Below, piece by piece: positions 2,766 through 6,204 of a stretch of DNA of 6,204 nucleotides; the stretch's first letter is position 1; each line of letters begins with the position of its first letter. The stretch covers positions 1 through 6,204 of the forward strand of contig JASIJX010000391.1 in NCBI GenBank assembly GCA_030049955.1. The letters run 5' to 3'. The position numbers and the translations under genes were made by a program. The notes beneath the pieces were generated by a model that searched no databases, was not told the DNA's origin, and saw only the letters and a program-made list of their open reading frames with translations. This stretch comes from Acidobacteriaceae bacterium (GTDB taxonomy: Bacteria > Acidobacteriota > Terriglobia > Terriglobales > Acidobacteriaceae).

Positions 2766-2769
2766 CCTT
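2766..2769 (-). promoter_or_regulatory. birA ribosome binding site overlapping the nadC stop
   Basis: On the minus strand the nadC stop codon TAA runs into GG, making AAGG 6 bases before the birA ATG. The Shine-Dalgarno thus uses the last bases of nadC, which points to coupled translation of the two genes and supports the birA start at 2759. Confidence 0.5.
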
Positions 2770-3664
2770 ACTCCGCGACAATACTCATGGAGATATCTGC
2801 AGCCTTGGCCGAATGGGTAAGCGCGCCCACGCTGATGAAGTCCACTCCCGCTTCTGCATACGCGCGGATGTTCTCGAGCACAATACCGCCCGAAGCCTCA
2901 GTCGGAATCCAGCGGCCTTCGCGTTTAATCCGATCTACCGACTGTTTGATCTCTGCCGGCGTCATATTGTCGAGCAGGATAGCCTCGGCGCCGTTCGCCA
3001 GCGCCTCATCCAGTTCCGCGGCGGTCCGCACCTCCACCTGCACGCGCTGCCCGGGCTTGCGCTCGGCAAGCGCACGCTTGAGAACAGTGGGAATGCCTCC
3101 ACCCAAGGCGATGTGGTTGTTCTTGATGAGAATGCCGCTGGCGAGATCGATGCGGTGATTCGTTCCGCCGCCGCAGAGAACCGCGTATTTTTCGAGCGCG
3201 CGCAATCCCGGAACAGTCTTACGCGTGTCGAGCACGCGCGCCTGCGTTCCCCCACCCGTATTTTGGATTGCATCGGCATAGCGGCGCGTTAACGTGGCAA
3301 TGCCGCTGAGGTGCTGCAGCAGGTTCAGGATCACGCGCTCGCAGCTCAGCAGCACGCGCGCGTTGTGCCGAATGACTGCGAGCACCTGGTTGCGATGCAC
3401 GCGCACACCGTCGAACATTTCAGGATGACTGATGACCTCAAAACGCGTCTGCGCCTGCGGGCGCGGATCGAGGCGCGCGAAGATCTCAAGAAAACGCGGG
3501 ATGGCGCCCAGCCCGGCAACGACAAGTTCCTCGCGCGCCACGATGGCTGCCGAAGCGCGCAGGTTAGGGTCGATCACCAGGTTCGTGGTGGCGTCGCTTG
3601 CGGCCTTGTCTTCCACAAGGGCCTGCTCCAGCAGAACGTCGATGCGATGGCTCTTCCAGTCCAT
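2768..3664 (-). CDS. nadC: Nicotinate-nucleotide pyrophosphorylase (carboxylating), quinolinate phosphoribosyltransferase
   Basis: Converts quinolinate and PRPP to nicotinate mononucleotide, CO2 and pyrophosphate, the entry into NAD from the de novo pathway. The 298 residues are the usual length. An N-terminal alpha/beta sandwich covers about 1-115, and the alpha/beta barrel follows. Visible motifs are ERVILNLLQHLSGIATLT at 109-126, DTRKTVPGLRALEKYAVLCG at 146-165, NHRID at 169-173, IKNNHI at 180-185, EVRT at 211-214, LLDNM at 230-234, EASGGI at 256-261 and ISVGALTHS at 277-285. The substrate-binding set Arg148, Lys149, His170, Arg171, Lys181, Glu211 and Asp232 has the same spacing as the known active site, within one residue. 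All key residues are kept. The ATG at 3664 is the first start after an in-frame stop, but there is no clear Shine-Dalgarno because a 7-bp tandem repeat occupies that position. It is probably the first gene of the nadC-birA-coaX operon. Confidence 0.97.
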   Translation of the reverse strand: MDWKSHRIDVLLEQALVEDKAASDATTNLVIDPNLRASAAIVAREELVVAGLGAIPRFLEIFARLDPRPQAQTRFEVISHPEMFDGVRVHRNQVLAVIRHNARVLLSCERVILNLLQHLSGIATLTRRYADAIQNTGGGTQARVLDTRKTVPGLRALEKYAVLCGGGTNHRIDLASGILIKNNHIALGGGIPTVLKRALAERKPGQRVQVEVRTAAELDEALANGAEAILLDNMTPAEIKQSVDRIKREGRWIPTEASGGIVLENIRAYAEAGVDFISVGALTHSAKAADISMSIVAE

Positions 3665-3670
3665 AGTCAG

Positions 3671-3698
3671 TTCACAGTTCGTAGTTCACAGTTCACAG
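3671..3698. repeat. 7-bp tandem repeat (four units) just upstream of nadC
   Basis: On the plus strand four units follow each other: TTCACAG, TTCGTAG, TTCACAG, TTCACAG. Three are identical and the second differs at two bases. On the minus strand (the nadC sense strand) this is a CTGTGAA array that ends 6 bases before the nadC ATG, so it fills the place where a ribosome binding site would be. The unit length is not a multiple of three, but the array is outside the reading frame. I recall similar short arrays between genes in Acidobacteriota, without having checked. Confidence 0.9.
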
Positions 3699-3726
3699 CT
3701 AACTCTATAAACAGCTAACTCTATAA
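3695..3726. repeat. Perfect 16-bp tandem duplication in the nadC leader
   Basis: The 16-base unit ACAGCTAACTCTATAA occurs twice without mismatch, at 3695-3710 and 3711-3726. It overlaps the last four bases of the neighbouring 7-bp array. It is AT-rich in a GC-rich region. On the minus strand each unit gives TTATAGAGTTAGCTGT, so two TATAGA-like boxes lie about 40 and 56 bases before the nadC ATG. One could serve as a -10 element, with GTGACA at 3729-3734 as a weak -35 for the copy nearer nadC, although the spacing of 19 bases is poor. The duplication is certain; the promoter role is speculative. Confidence 0.92.
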
Positions 3727-3732
3727 TCTGTC

Positions 3733-3773
3733 ACCCTGGGCAACCGGGGTCCCCGCGGACTGGTTTTGTCCGC
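3733..3773. repeat. Palindromic element in the valS-nadC gap (GGGGTCCCC box plus stem-loop)
   Basis: Read on the plus strand, the element has three parts. An imperfect stem pairs ACCCTG (3733-3738) with CGGGGT (3745-3750), including one G-T pair, around GGCAAC. A 9-bp odd palindrome GGGGTCCCC lies at 3746-3754. A perfect 6-bp stem GCGGAC (3755-3760) / GTCCGC (3768-3773) encloses the loop TGGTTTT. There is no T-run after the stem on the minus strand, so I do not call it a rho-independent terminator of valS. Box, stem and loop match the arrangement of the palindrome inside valS at 5021-5053, which suggests one dispersed repeat family. The whole 146-bp gap is this element, the two tandem repeats and about 37 bp of unremarkable sequence next to the valS stop. 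Confidence 0.75.
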
Positions 3774-3810
3774 CATGTGAAGAAGCGAAGGATCTGCGGT
3801 TGCTTTTCGT

Positions 3811-6204
3811 CTACTCCTCTGGCAGTGCATCCAGCGCCGCCTTCGCCTTTTCGAGCAGCAGGCGTGTCTCGGCTTCCTGTTTCTTCAATCCCTCCACAAT
3901 ATGCGCTGGAGCCTTAGACAAAAATGTTTCATTGCCCAACTGCCGCTCAGCGGCTGCCAAGCCTTTTTCCAATCGCGCAATCTCTTTTGTCAAACGCTCC
4001 CGCTCGGCAGCTACATTGACTGAGCGCTCATATACCACCGCAACGTCGAACGCCGTAGTGTGGTGCTTCGAGAGACCCGCAGAAATCTGCTCCACGAACC
4101 GCAGCTCGCTCACGCGGGCCAGTCGCTCGATAATGTCGCGGTTCGCGGAGAAGATTTCGCGCGCCGTAGCGTGCGTACGCACCTCGATGGGCGCCGCAGC
4201 CTTTTCTTCCACGCCGATCTCCTTGCGCAGAGCGCGGACCTCGACGATCAGGTTCTGCACCAGTTCCATCTCTTCGATGGGCGCCTGATCCACGGCCGGT
4301 GTTGCCGCCTGCGGATAGCGTGTAAGCGCAATAGACTTCGCCGGCGGGTTCCCGTTGTAAACCGCGTGCCACAACTCTTCCGTGAGGAAGGGCATGAAGG
4401 GCGAAAGCAAGCGCAAGGCCGCTTCGAAGACTGCGACCAGCGTATTCAACGCGGCGCTGGTTTTCCGCTTGTCCGCGCCATCTGAGAAATCGAGCCGCAG
4501 CTTGACGATCTCGAGATACCAGTCGCAGAAGCTCCCCCAGAAGAAGCGATACGTGGCGTTGGCCGCATCGTCAAAGCGGTAATTTTCAAGCGCCTGGTGT
4601 ACGCTGGCTGCGGCTGCGTGGAGTTCGGAGACAATCCAGCGGCTCTCGATTGGCGCGTCATCCGGTACAGAAGGCATGCCGCCCAGCGTGGCGAGGTCGA
4701 GAGTGATACCCACCTCGGCCGCCTTGTCCACATTCATAAAAATAAAGCGCGCCGCATTCCAGATTTTATTGGCGAAGGCGCGATAGCCTTCGGTGCGGGC
4801 CACGTTGAACGCAATATCGGTGCCCGGCGAGGCCATCGACGCCAGCGTGAAGCGCACGGCATCGGTGCCGTACTGTTTCACGATCTCGATTGGATCGATG
4901 ACGTTGCCCTTGGTCTTGGACATCTTCTCGCGATTAGCGTCACGCACCAGCGCGTGAATGTAGACCTCGCGGAACGGAACTGAATCCGCCAATTCTCTGG
5001 GCGAACCGCCTGACATGGCTGGGGTCCCCAACGACGGGTCCTTGTCGTTGGGGTGGGTCGGCACATCCGGCGAAAACCAGCAGCCCAGCATGATCATGCG
5101 CGCCACCCAAAAGAACAGAATGTCAAAACCGGTGACCAGCACGCTTGTTGGGTAAAACGTGTCAAAGTCGGCCTGCGTTTCCGGCGTGACGCGCGGCCAC
5201 CCGAAGACCGAAACCGGCAGAAGCCCCGAGGAAAACCACGTGTCGAGCACGTCCGTCTCCTGGGTGATCTCTTTAGAACCGCAGTGTGAGCAGGCCGCGG
5301 GGTCCTCGCGCGCCACCGTGATCTTGTGGCAGGTAGCGCAGTGCCACGCAGGAATCCGGTGGCCCCACCAAAGCTGCCGCGAAATGCACCAGTCGTGGAT
5401 GTTGTTCATCCAGTCGAGGTAGATCTTCTCGTAATTCTCGGGCGTAAAGCGGATGGCCTTGCGTCCGCTGGCGTCCGGCTTGACGGCGGCGATGGCTTTG
5501 TCGGCCAGCGGCTGAATCTTAATGAACCACTGCGTCGAAAGGCGCGGTTCCACGACCGTCTTGCAGCGGTCGCAGTGGCCCACGTTGTTTACGTGGTCCT
5601 TGACGCCGGCCAGAAGCCCCTGGGCCTCAAGGTCAGCAACGATCTTCTTGCGCGCCGCGTAGCGATCGAGTCCTGCGTACGGCCCGCCGTGCTCGTTAAT
5701 ATGCGCGCGATCGTCCATCACGTTGATGGAGGACAGATGGTGCCGTTCGCCCAGCGCGAAGTCATTTGGATCGTGCGCCGGCGTCACCTTCACCGCGCCG
5801 GTGCCGAATTCGCGGCTCACCCACTCGTCGAGGATGATGGGAATCTCGCGGTTCATCAAGGGCAGGCGCAGCTTTTTTCCGTGTAGATTCTTGTAGCGCT
5901 CGTCCTCGGGATGAATGGCTACGGCCGTATCGCCGAGCATCGTCTCCGGGCGCGTCGTCGCTACAGTCAGGAACTCGCCGGTATCTCTGCCATCGTCACC
6001 GACAACCGGGTACCGGATCTCCCAGAGATGCCCCTTCTGTTCTTCGTGAACAACTTCAAGATCACTGATGGCCGTCTGGCAGCGCGGGCACCAGTTCACG
6101 ATGTAGGCGCCGCGATAGATGAGCCCCTGCTCGTAGAGGCGCACAAACGCCTCGCGGACGGCGACCGAAAGCCGCTCGTCCATAGTGAAGTACTCGCGGC
6201 TCCA
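3811..6204 (-). CDS. valS: Valyl-tRNA synthetase, lacking its N-terminus (runs off right edge)
   Basis: Charges tRNA-Val with valine and edits misactivated threonine. The frame is open to the window edge, giving 797 residues from WSREYFTMDERLS. Roughly the first 130 residues, with the HIGH motif, are outside. Numbering from the first visible residue, landmarks are WCPRC at 38-42, the editing-domain signatures TVATTRPETMLGDTAVAIHP at 80-99 and TPAHDPNDFALGERHH at 141-156, CDRCKTVVEPRLSTQWF at 211-227, DWCISRQLWWGHRIPAWHC at 271-289, a four-cysteine zinc-ribbon set at 289, 292, 305 and 308, DVLDTWFSSG at 318-327, and the KMSKS loop as EKMSKTKGNVIDP at 426-438. The anticodon-binding helical domain spans about 520-670, and the C-terminal coiled-coil arm about 729-797. 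An extra segment at about 383-407 is encoded by a palindromic insertion. Codon use and frame are otherwise intact, so the enzyme should be functional. The gap to nadC is 146 bp, so valS may be a separate transcription unit. Confidence 0.97.
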   Translation of the reverse strand, partial: WSREYFTMDERLSVAVREAFVRLYEQGLIYRGAYIVNWCPRCQTAISDLEVVHEEQKGHLWEIRYPVVGDDGRDTGEFLTVATTRPETMLGDTAVAIHPEDERYKNLHGKKLRLPLMNREIPIILDEWVSREFGTGAVKVTPAHDPNDFALGERHHLSSINVMDDRAHINEHGGPYAGLDRYAARKKIVADLEAQGLLAGVKDHVNNVGHCDRCKTVVEPRLSTQWFIKIQPLADKAIAAVKPDASGRKAIRFTPENYEKIYLDWMNNIHDWCISRQLWWGHRIPAWHCATCHKITVAREDPAACSHCGSKEITQETDVLDTWFSSGLLPVSVFGWPRVTPETQADFDTFYPTSVLVTGFDILFFWVARMIMLGCWFSPDVPTHPNDKDPSLGTPAMSGGSPRELADSVPFREVYIHALVRDANREKMSKTKGNVIDPIEIVKQYGTDAVRFTLASMASPGTDIAFNVARTEGYRAFANKIWNAARFIFMNVDKAAEVGITLDLATLGGMPSVPDDAPIESRWIVSELHAAAASVHQALENYRFDDAANATYRFFWGSFCDWYLEIVKLRLDFSDGADKRKTSAALNTLVAVFEAALRLLSPFMPFLTEELWHAVYNGNPPAKSIALTRYPQAATPAVDQAPIEEMELVQNLIVEVRALRKEIGVEEKAAAPIEVRTHATAREIFSANRDIIERLARVSELRFVEQISAGLSKHHTTAFDVAVVYERSVNVAAERERLTKEIARLEKGLAAAERQLGNETFLSKAPAHIVEGLKKQEAETRLLLEKAKAALDALPEE
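4984..5058 (-). repeat. In-frame palindromic insertion within valS
   Basis: This 75-bp stretch encodes the segment from THPNDKDPSLGTPAM to GGSPRELAD, between CWFSPDVP and SVPFREVYIHAL. Compared with E. coli ValS as I recall it, the link between the ARMIM helix and VPF has about 22 extra residues (31 against 9). Its core is a perfect 10-bp inverted repeat, CCCCAACGAC (5026-5035) and GTCGTTGGGG (5044-5053) on the plus strand, with loop GGGTCCTT. It abuts GGGGTCCCC (5021-5029). The arm nearer the KMSKS end reads SLG and the other reads HPND. The exact edges are uncertain: the part after the palindrome (SGGSPRELAD) may be native sequence. The length keeps the reading frame. Confidence 0.7.

Follow-up and report, generated by a model that had tools for sequence, protein, structure and literature searches.

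A palindromic element in frame within valS

We analysed a 6,204-nt stretch of an Acidobacteriaceae genome (assembly GCA_030049955.1, contig JASIJX010000391.1; the whole stretch is called the window below), whose minus strand carries valS, with its 5′ end cut off by the window edge, together with nadC, a biotin ligase gene, coaX and one unnamed gene. Our subject is a short palindromic element that lies inside valS (3811..6204, minus strand; NCBIfam PRK05729, 943 bits, E = 1.3e-283). A first-pass annotation made from the sequence alone had placed a palindrome in frame here, and this is confirmed: the arms CCCCAACGAC (5026-5035) and GTCGTTGGGG (5044-5053) are perfectly complementary and form a 10-bp stem around an 8-nt loop (5036-5043), and the resulting structure (5026..5053) is the sole inverted repeat with perfect 10-bp arms and a loop of 3-15 nt in the window, against 0.14 expected per window from 50 first-order Markov versions. 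Its translation in valS is HPNDKDPSLGTP, residues 377-388 of the 790-amino-acid open reading frame (ORF) at 3811-6183 (minus).

The inserted unit exceeds the palindrome. It consists of a 39-nt element (5019..5057, minus strand) and a presumed 3-nt target-site duplication, 42 nt together; the duplication reads CGA in its left copy (5058..5060, minus) and CCA in its right copy (5016..5018, minus), both given in the valS sense and matching at two of three bases. Their register, -5..-3 against +37..+39, was derived from 87 single copies. The segment had been drawn at first as 4984..5058; what it holds beyond the inserted unit is ordinary ValS linker, common to relatives. A matrix built from the other copies scores this one at 47.8, the highest value in the window, with -17.8 for the runner-up, and nhmmer recovers it with E = 8.4e-10. 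A degenerate second copy, of the 3′ half, lies between valS and nadC (3744..3762, minus), with a 3′-half score of 19.2 against 9.2 for the best of 40 Markov versions; as a full-length match (3744-3782) its score is not above chance in such versions.

Folded as RNA in the valS sense, the palindrome reaches -24.3 kcal/mol (z -2.43; an energy as low came from 5 of 200 shuffles), and z is -1.57 on the opposite strand, so that the folding energy on its own is only modestly unusual. In Thermus ValRS (1gax) the matched parts are separated by just three residues, 507-509; the first-pass annotation put the E. coli link at about nine. Structure predictions for the window ORF (29 alignment rows) and for the homologue P0003 (72 rows) have a mean predicted local distance difference test score (pLDDT) of 61 and 64, and because pLDDT falls below 50 in the catalytic part around the insert they say nothing on the loop itself.

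Dispersal in Acidobacteriaceae

Dispersal was observed in the genomes of relatives, in addition to the degenerate second copy in the window. Searching 22 relatives' genomes with a structure-like pattern at up to two mismatches, we found the element in 20, and the reversed pattern, used as a control, gave 0 matches. Copies are most numerous in G021 (84), G022 (48), G008 (47), G010 (35) and G014 (29); seven occur in Occallatibacter savannae AB23, a named host strain, whose in-gene copies lie in rimO, mtaB and a hydrolase-like gene. Allowing one mismatch at most, we detected the element in 49 out of 300 family genomes; a phylum-wide sample of 297 genomes gave five carriers, each of them also in the family sample. 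The element looks confined to one family, Acidobacteriaceae. The consensus matched nothing among plasmid and phage records at E 0.01.

Many intergenic copies of G008 (L083, L123, L131, L139, L150, L158 and others) lie within a longer common context, CCCACCCTAG...GAAGCCGCAAAAACAAG, from which it follows that a composite, larger repeat exists in that genome.

Consensus, stem and flanking duplication

The consensus, TCCACCCCANNGACNNNGACCNGTCNNTGGGGACCCCGG, is 39 nt long and free of stop codons in all six frames. Its stem shows compensatory changes: among 104 distinct copies, pair 7-24 changes on both sides (GC 41, CG 33, AT 19, TA 3), as does pair 8-23 (CG 60, GC 37, AT 3). Base counts over the 104 copies reveal no GTAG or CGTC tag next to the stem.

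In 23 single in-gene copies, the flanks match at positions -5, -4 and -3 in 17, 13 and 17 cases against 7, 7 and 6 expected (permutation p 0.001, which is the floor, 0.009 and 0.001), and the next flank position has 9 matches against 6 expected (p 0.10). Because three flank positions match and the next does not, the best description of the element is a length of 39 nt with a target duplication of 3 nt, which makes a frame-neutral unit of 42 nt. Tandem copies are spaced at 41-43 nt, mostly 42. In the 64 copies outside genes, matching at -5..-3 is less marked (p 0.011-0.033), and a register of 41 nt is seen as well (two positions, p 0.001). A 2-nt duplication, our first idea, and CCGG-specific insertion without duplication were both dropped, as the permutation test favoured the 3-nt duplication. 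Left of the in-gene copies, positions -10 to -6 lean towards GCCGG, which resembles the element's own right end; this lean is unexplained and could be a target preference.

In-frame copies within genes

A hexamer coding model was applied to the sequence on each side of 113 matches, drawn from 198 loci, some of them overlapping, and from the window. To count as lying in a gene, a copy had to have one and the same frame with a score of 10 or more on each side, open across the copy itself; tandem arrays and places retrieved twice were entered once each. The first set contained 26 in-frame gene places, and eight added from further loci under the same rule bring these to 34, at all of which the gene matches its named family, in some cases below the curated cut-off. 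All 47 matches of G008 fall in 43 stretches, 10 of which hold an in-gene place; some of the relatives' copies lie within genes, most outside.

Two genes are hit at four positions each: valS (window, L016, L034 and L059) and RNase R, in four genomes (L149, L256, L258 and L260), which is why RNase R may be a second favoured host gene. Two positions are occupied in purH (L138, L216), and tsaB carries the element in two genomes, the copy of G021 (L289) lying at the same position as that of G008 (L148). Tandem in-frame copies occur in birA (two, L018) and cysN (three, L040), and comEC has two in-frame copies (L054). A single in-frame copy was found in each of rlmD (L036), rimO (L162), malQ (L170), lnt (L120), ftsK (L121), rnpA (L142), mtaB (L168), bshB1 (L187), gntP (L192), priA (L196) and yidC (L272); in genes for a CorC/PaeA-like protein (L129), a TamB-like protein (L135), a peptidase of the DPP IV type (L143), an MsbA-type ABC transporter (L157), an ABHD18-like protein (L167) and a ureide-permease-like protein (L185); and in transposase genes of the IS5 and IS3 types (L325 of G309, 1338-1372 and 4786-4820). 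Left out of the count were L126 (which passes the rule; its ORF looks decayed), L159 (which passes; no family test), L140 (insert upstream within the mtnP ORF), L137 and L150 (not open) and the copy at 14966 of L036 (weak). The ORF of L126 (1796-2800) holds two tandem in-frame copies; its start matches an amine oxidase domain, and we take its end to resemble an IS110-type transposase.

Whether in-gene copies always use one frame was a point raised by the first-pass annotation, and they do not: five of the six frames are used, in both orientations. In consensus form, the first 26 places translate as GVPSDRSSSLGW (10 places), HPSDEDLSLGTP (7), PPQRRRPVAGDP (5) and PGSPATGLRRWGG (4), and RGPQRQVFVAGV-like peptides come from two of the eight added places, one in the G021 RNase R gene and one in the IS3-type transposase gene. 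Counts over the 34 places are 13, 8, 7, 4, 2 and 0, an uneven use (chi-square p 0.0017) in which the Cys/Trp frame, STPATKTCRWGPR, is the only one unseen, the chance of some unused frame being 0.012. We have withdrawn a claim of two unused frames made from the first 26 places (chance 0.0004), one of the two being filled by the eight added places.

Filled and empty orthologues

Comparing the filled genes with their orthologues, we counted the residues missing in relatives over all spanning hits, including overlapping loci, paralogues and a second copy of the donor. The step is most often 14 residues, as at the valS site of L016 (90/102), at that of L034 (54/105, with 18-19 residues in a further 39), and in rlmD (31/52), purH (22/24), tsaB (13/16), RNase R (10/15) and the ABC transporter (8/19). 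It is 28 residues for the double insertion in birA (61/61), and there is more scatter in variable loops such as those of comEC and rnpA, where 14 residues are missing in 5 of 16 hits and 21 in 6. Nine pairs were compared as DNA, covering two valS sites, purH, RNase R, rnpA and the ABC transporter, and each has a single gap of exactly 42 nt.

Two genes show how presence varies among genomes. At one position of purH the element is present in G008 and G013 and absent from G010, which is the closest to G008 (91%); the tsaB genes of G008 and G021 contain it, and that of G010 lacks it. Either the position has been hit again or the element leaves precisely. In the ABC transporter, two diverged in-frame copies (L314/L317, G016) occupy the position at which G008 has one.

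Recurrence at the ValS linker

ValS homologues were collected with a search seeded by the insert-bearing region, which biases the sample, and the state changes given below can be losses. Of the 120 homologues listed, 19 have a filled linker (P0001-P0019), a different insert is seen in three (P0020-P0022), and the linker is short in most of the remainder, for example DVPMPDGSPR. The window's nearest relatives, P0025, P0023 and P0032, are without the 14 residues (P0032 being 91% identical over 669 columns). None of the 75 readable linkers among 80 ValS loci of public genomes has the insert (the other five did not fit the reading pattern), and of 398 genomes of the family, 331 match the linker region, with none filled among the 29 readable linkers of the 30 best. 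Together with the dispersed copies, these empty relatives support the proposal that a dispersed palindromic element inserted here and was tolerated in frame: the segment is not common to all relatives, and the palindrome is not unique.

On a ValS tree of 180 rows from which the linker was excluded, the filled state takes 14 changes, 10 of them forced by well-supported branches; on a tree of 62 rows it takes 15, of which 8 are forced, and a single clade of filled sequences is rejected (approximately unbiased (AU) test, p 1.5e-6, 62 rows). The valS linker is repeatedly filled, emptied or both.

Other repeats were seen in the same gene. The linker inserts of P0020, P0021 and P0022 are of the LYADKDKDPLLLDLEMPYGMKRPL type. 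In L064 and L066 the linker holds an in-frame palindrome beginning with GTAG, with 5 and 29 matches in the respective genomes, the valS place included, and in L068 and L079 it holds a third repeat, CCCTTCGACAAGCTCAGGGCAGGCTCT, in frame (6 and 2 genome matches, the valS place again included). The linkers of L065, L067 and L077 are look-alikes by eye, with 1, 0 and 1 genome matches, none on the valS contig. At a second place in valS, after FGWP, 16 of the 80 loci have a segment of more than 16 residues (for example L021, L023, L044 and L059); several of these segments are repeat-like (GAPGLDSETWE; GAPSFPRSSAERVG; CHPERANIDCHPERRSSARADD), and the 13-mer ACCTGGGGCACCC is found in 5 of the 16, with 9 occurrences in L001-L080 against 0.04 expected.

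Relation to known palindromic elements

Palindromic elements within genes have been described mainly from Rickettsia and Wolbachia, with scattered intragenic repetitive extragenic palindromes (REPs) elsewhere; the present element occurs in a free-living soil family, is very short and reaches tens of copies. The protein-coding palindromic repeats of Wolbachia reportedly behave as it does, and the likeness to these repeats, from another phylum, is one of behaviour alone. A comparison with Rickettsia palindromic elements (RPEs), suggested by the first-pass annotation, holds at the level of behaviour: as the sections on them in PMC2229807 and PMC10969869 have it, RPEs are dispersed palindromes that lie in frame in genes of conserved proteins and add a tolerated peptide. 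Going by description, the two differ in that classical RPEs are given as 105-146 bp long with no established duplication in the relevant part of PMC2229807, whereas here we find 39 nt plus a 3-nt duplication, in a free-living soil phylum, in five frames and both orientations. PMC3733652 presents RPE-4 and RPE-6 as short CGTC repeats, and the Acidobacteriaceae element is without a CGTC tag.

The same source, in its account of REPs within genes, reports GTAG- or CGTC-tagged examples from Opitutus terrae, R. conorii and others, which resemble the present element in being short palindromes (20-40 bp), often paired or grouped, in frame in genes for repair proteins, tRNA synthetases and others (PMC3733652). 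Our element differs from them in having no GTAG or CGTC tag, no adjoining gene for a REP-associated tyrosine transposase (RAYT; 30 loci) and a 3-nt duplication. The acidobacterial TIRYT/TIR families come from the same phylum and likewise have single or grouped repeats; compared by the motif reported in that part of PMC3733652 alone, GGGGWSAS does not match GGGGACCC, and a relation to these families is possible. In common with a miniature inverted-repeat transposable element (MITE), the element has a target-site duplication, which in copies within genes is 3 nt long (p ≤ 0.009 at each position) and outside genes has a mixed register. REPs have been counted in Granulicella aggregans with RepRanger, according to the portion of PMC12306157 concerned, and the open-licence literature yielded no account of this element in Acidobacteria. 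By the features tested, the element is not a tagged REP, and it differs from classical RPEs in length; by analogy, and as far as published descriptions set it apart, it would be a new family among palindromic elements of the Rickettsia and Wolbachia type, with new features.

Interpretation and alternative explanations

The sequence comparisons make it highly probable that valS here contains a copy of a small mobile palindrome, non-autonomous and dispersed in Acidobacteriaceae, which is tolerated as selfish DNA rather than kept for the function of the enzyme. What carries this reading is the dispersal, the compensatory stem changes, the 42-nt steps of presence and absence, the 34 in-frame places and the 3-nt in-gene duplication. 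A transposase acting in trans would move the element with a 3-bp target duplication, and each insertion would add 42 nt, or 14 codons. Because the consensus is stop-free in any frame, insertion into a gene would add a short, mostly hydrophilic peptide instead of breaking the gene. Selection would then purge insertions that disturb the fold and leave in place those that fall in a loop able to accept them, of which the ValS linker preceding KMSKS is an example.

Several observations tell against this reading. Copies outside genes show the mixed 41/42 register; the 3-nt duplication is a statistical signal across many registers tested, and single copies, the window's included, often match at two of its three bases; and comEC has no clean step (34 residues in 23/40). 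No mobiliser was identified. Among ten stretches with closely spaced copies, in which ten ORFs were scanned, transposase genes were recognised in two (L324, L325), and no transposase unit with the element at its ends was established in these ten stretches, no systematic search having been made. In one case, L324 of G218, inverted copies (1253-1287 and 2768-2802) flank the IS21-type istA, one just upstream of the istA start and the other near its end, before istB; we read them here as insertions into an IS21, and a link of the element with IS21 is a possible lead.

That the palindrome is a REP of the RAYT or TIRYT type, moved as single-stranded DNA by a hairpin-recognising HUH tyrosine transposase, would suit the hairpin with its compensatory changes, the tandem spacing of 41-43 nt, the GCCGG lean that resembles the element's right end, and the presence of RAYT-family genes above cut-off in 21 of the 22 genomes. 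HUH transposition should, however, leave no duplication, and a flanking duplication is present; the stem foot is without a GTAG or CGTC tag, the TIR motif is unmatched, and RAYT as an adjacent mobiliser was rejected, since none of 30 RAYT loci has the element within about 1.5 kb (no copy at E 0.01; best hit E 0.38). Tyrosine transposases flanked by terminal inverted repeats are known from Acidobacteria, as the pertinent section of PMC3733652 reports, and even so we hold this origin to be unlikely. A different account, which is possible though short of likely, bears on the valS site: a single old insertion into the linker, inherited or spread by recombination of valS, may have been lost many times, so that cases at the same site would not be separate insertions. 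It is favoured by the 19 other filled linkers, which share the window's place and frame and are mostly close to HPNDKDP, a likeness that is biased because the window's insert seeded the search, and by purH and tsaB, which are filled in distant and empty in nearest relatives as precise losses would give; the rejection of one clade, the 14-15 changes with 8-10 forced and the lack of any filled linker among the 29 readable ones of the 30 best genomes argue against it.

Selection of the insert for a function, whether as an mRNA hairpin that tunes translation or as a peptide that changes the enzyme, is improbable. The stem does lie within the valS transcript, the linker is filled recurrently at one site and the frames are used unevenly; yet the genes that harbour the element are unrelated to one another, it lies in them either way round and in five frames, the nearest relatives lack the insert, and the unevenness has a simpler account if the Cys/Trp peptide and the most hydrophobic one are rejected. 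An ordinary lineage-specific loop with a chance palindrome deserves practically no credence: linker length does vary in other Acidobacteria, but the dispersed copies with a control of zero and the exact 42-nt absence in orthologues have already refuted it.

Returning to the mobile palindrome, we put forward, tentatively and with some doubt, that the element is in effect tuned to life in genes, as a frame-neutral, six-frame-open 42-nt unit that would be repeatedly inserted and removed at fixed positions. Loops of ValS (and of RNase R) would then be permanent targets, shared in the case of ValS by several unrelated repeat families. If true, selfish DNA would continually lengthen and trim the housekeeping proteins of the family. 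In-frame copies of this kind show one source of lineage-specific loops in conserved enzymes, and they are a warning that such loops need not be functional. Movement of the element and tolerance by the protein are directly testable, given orthologous empty sites, the target duplication and a named host strain in Occallatibacter savannae AB23.

Other features of the window

The host is Terracidiphilus-like, several of its closest ValS relatives bearing the name Terracidiphilus. A search of the window against Rfam gave no match at E 1 or below. The nadC gene (2768..3664, minus) matches TIGR00078 with 279 bits, and between nadC and valS, at 3695-3726, stand two perfect 16-nt direct repeats, ACAGCTAACTCTATAA.

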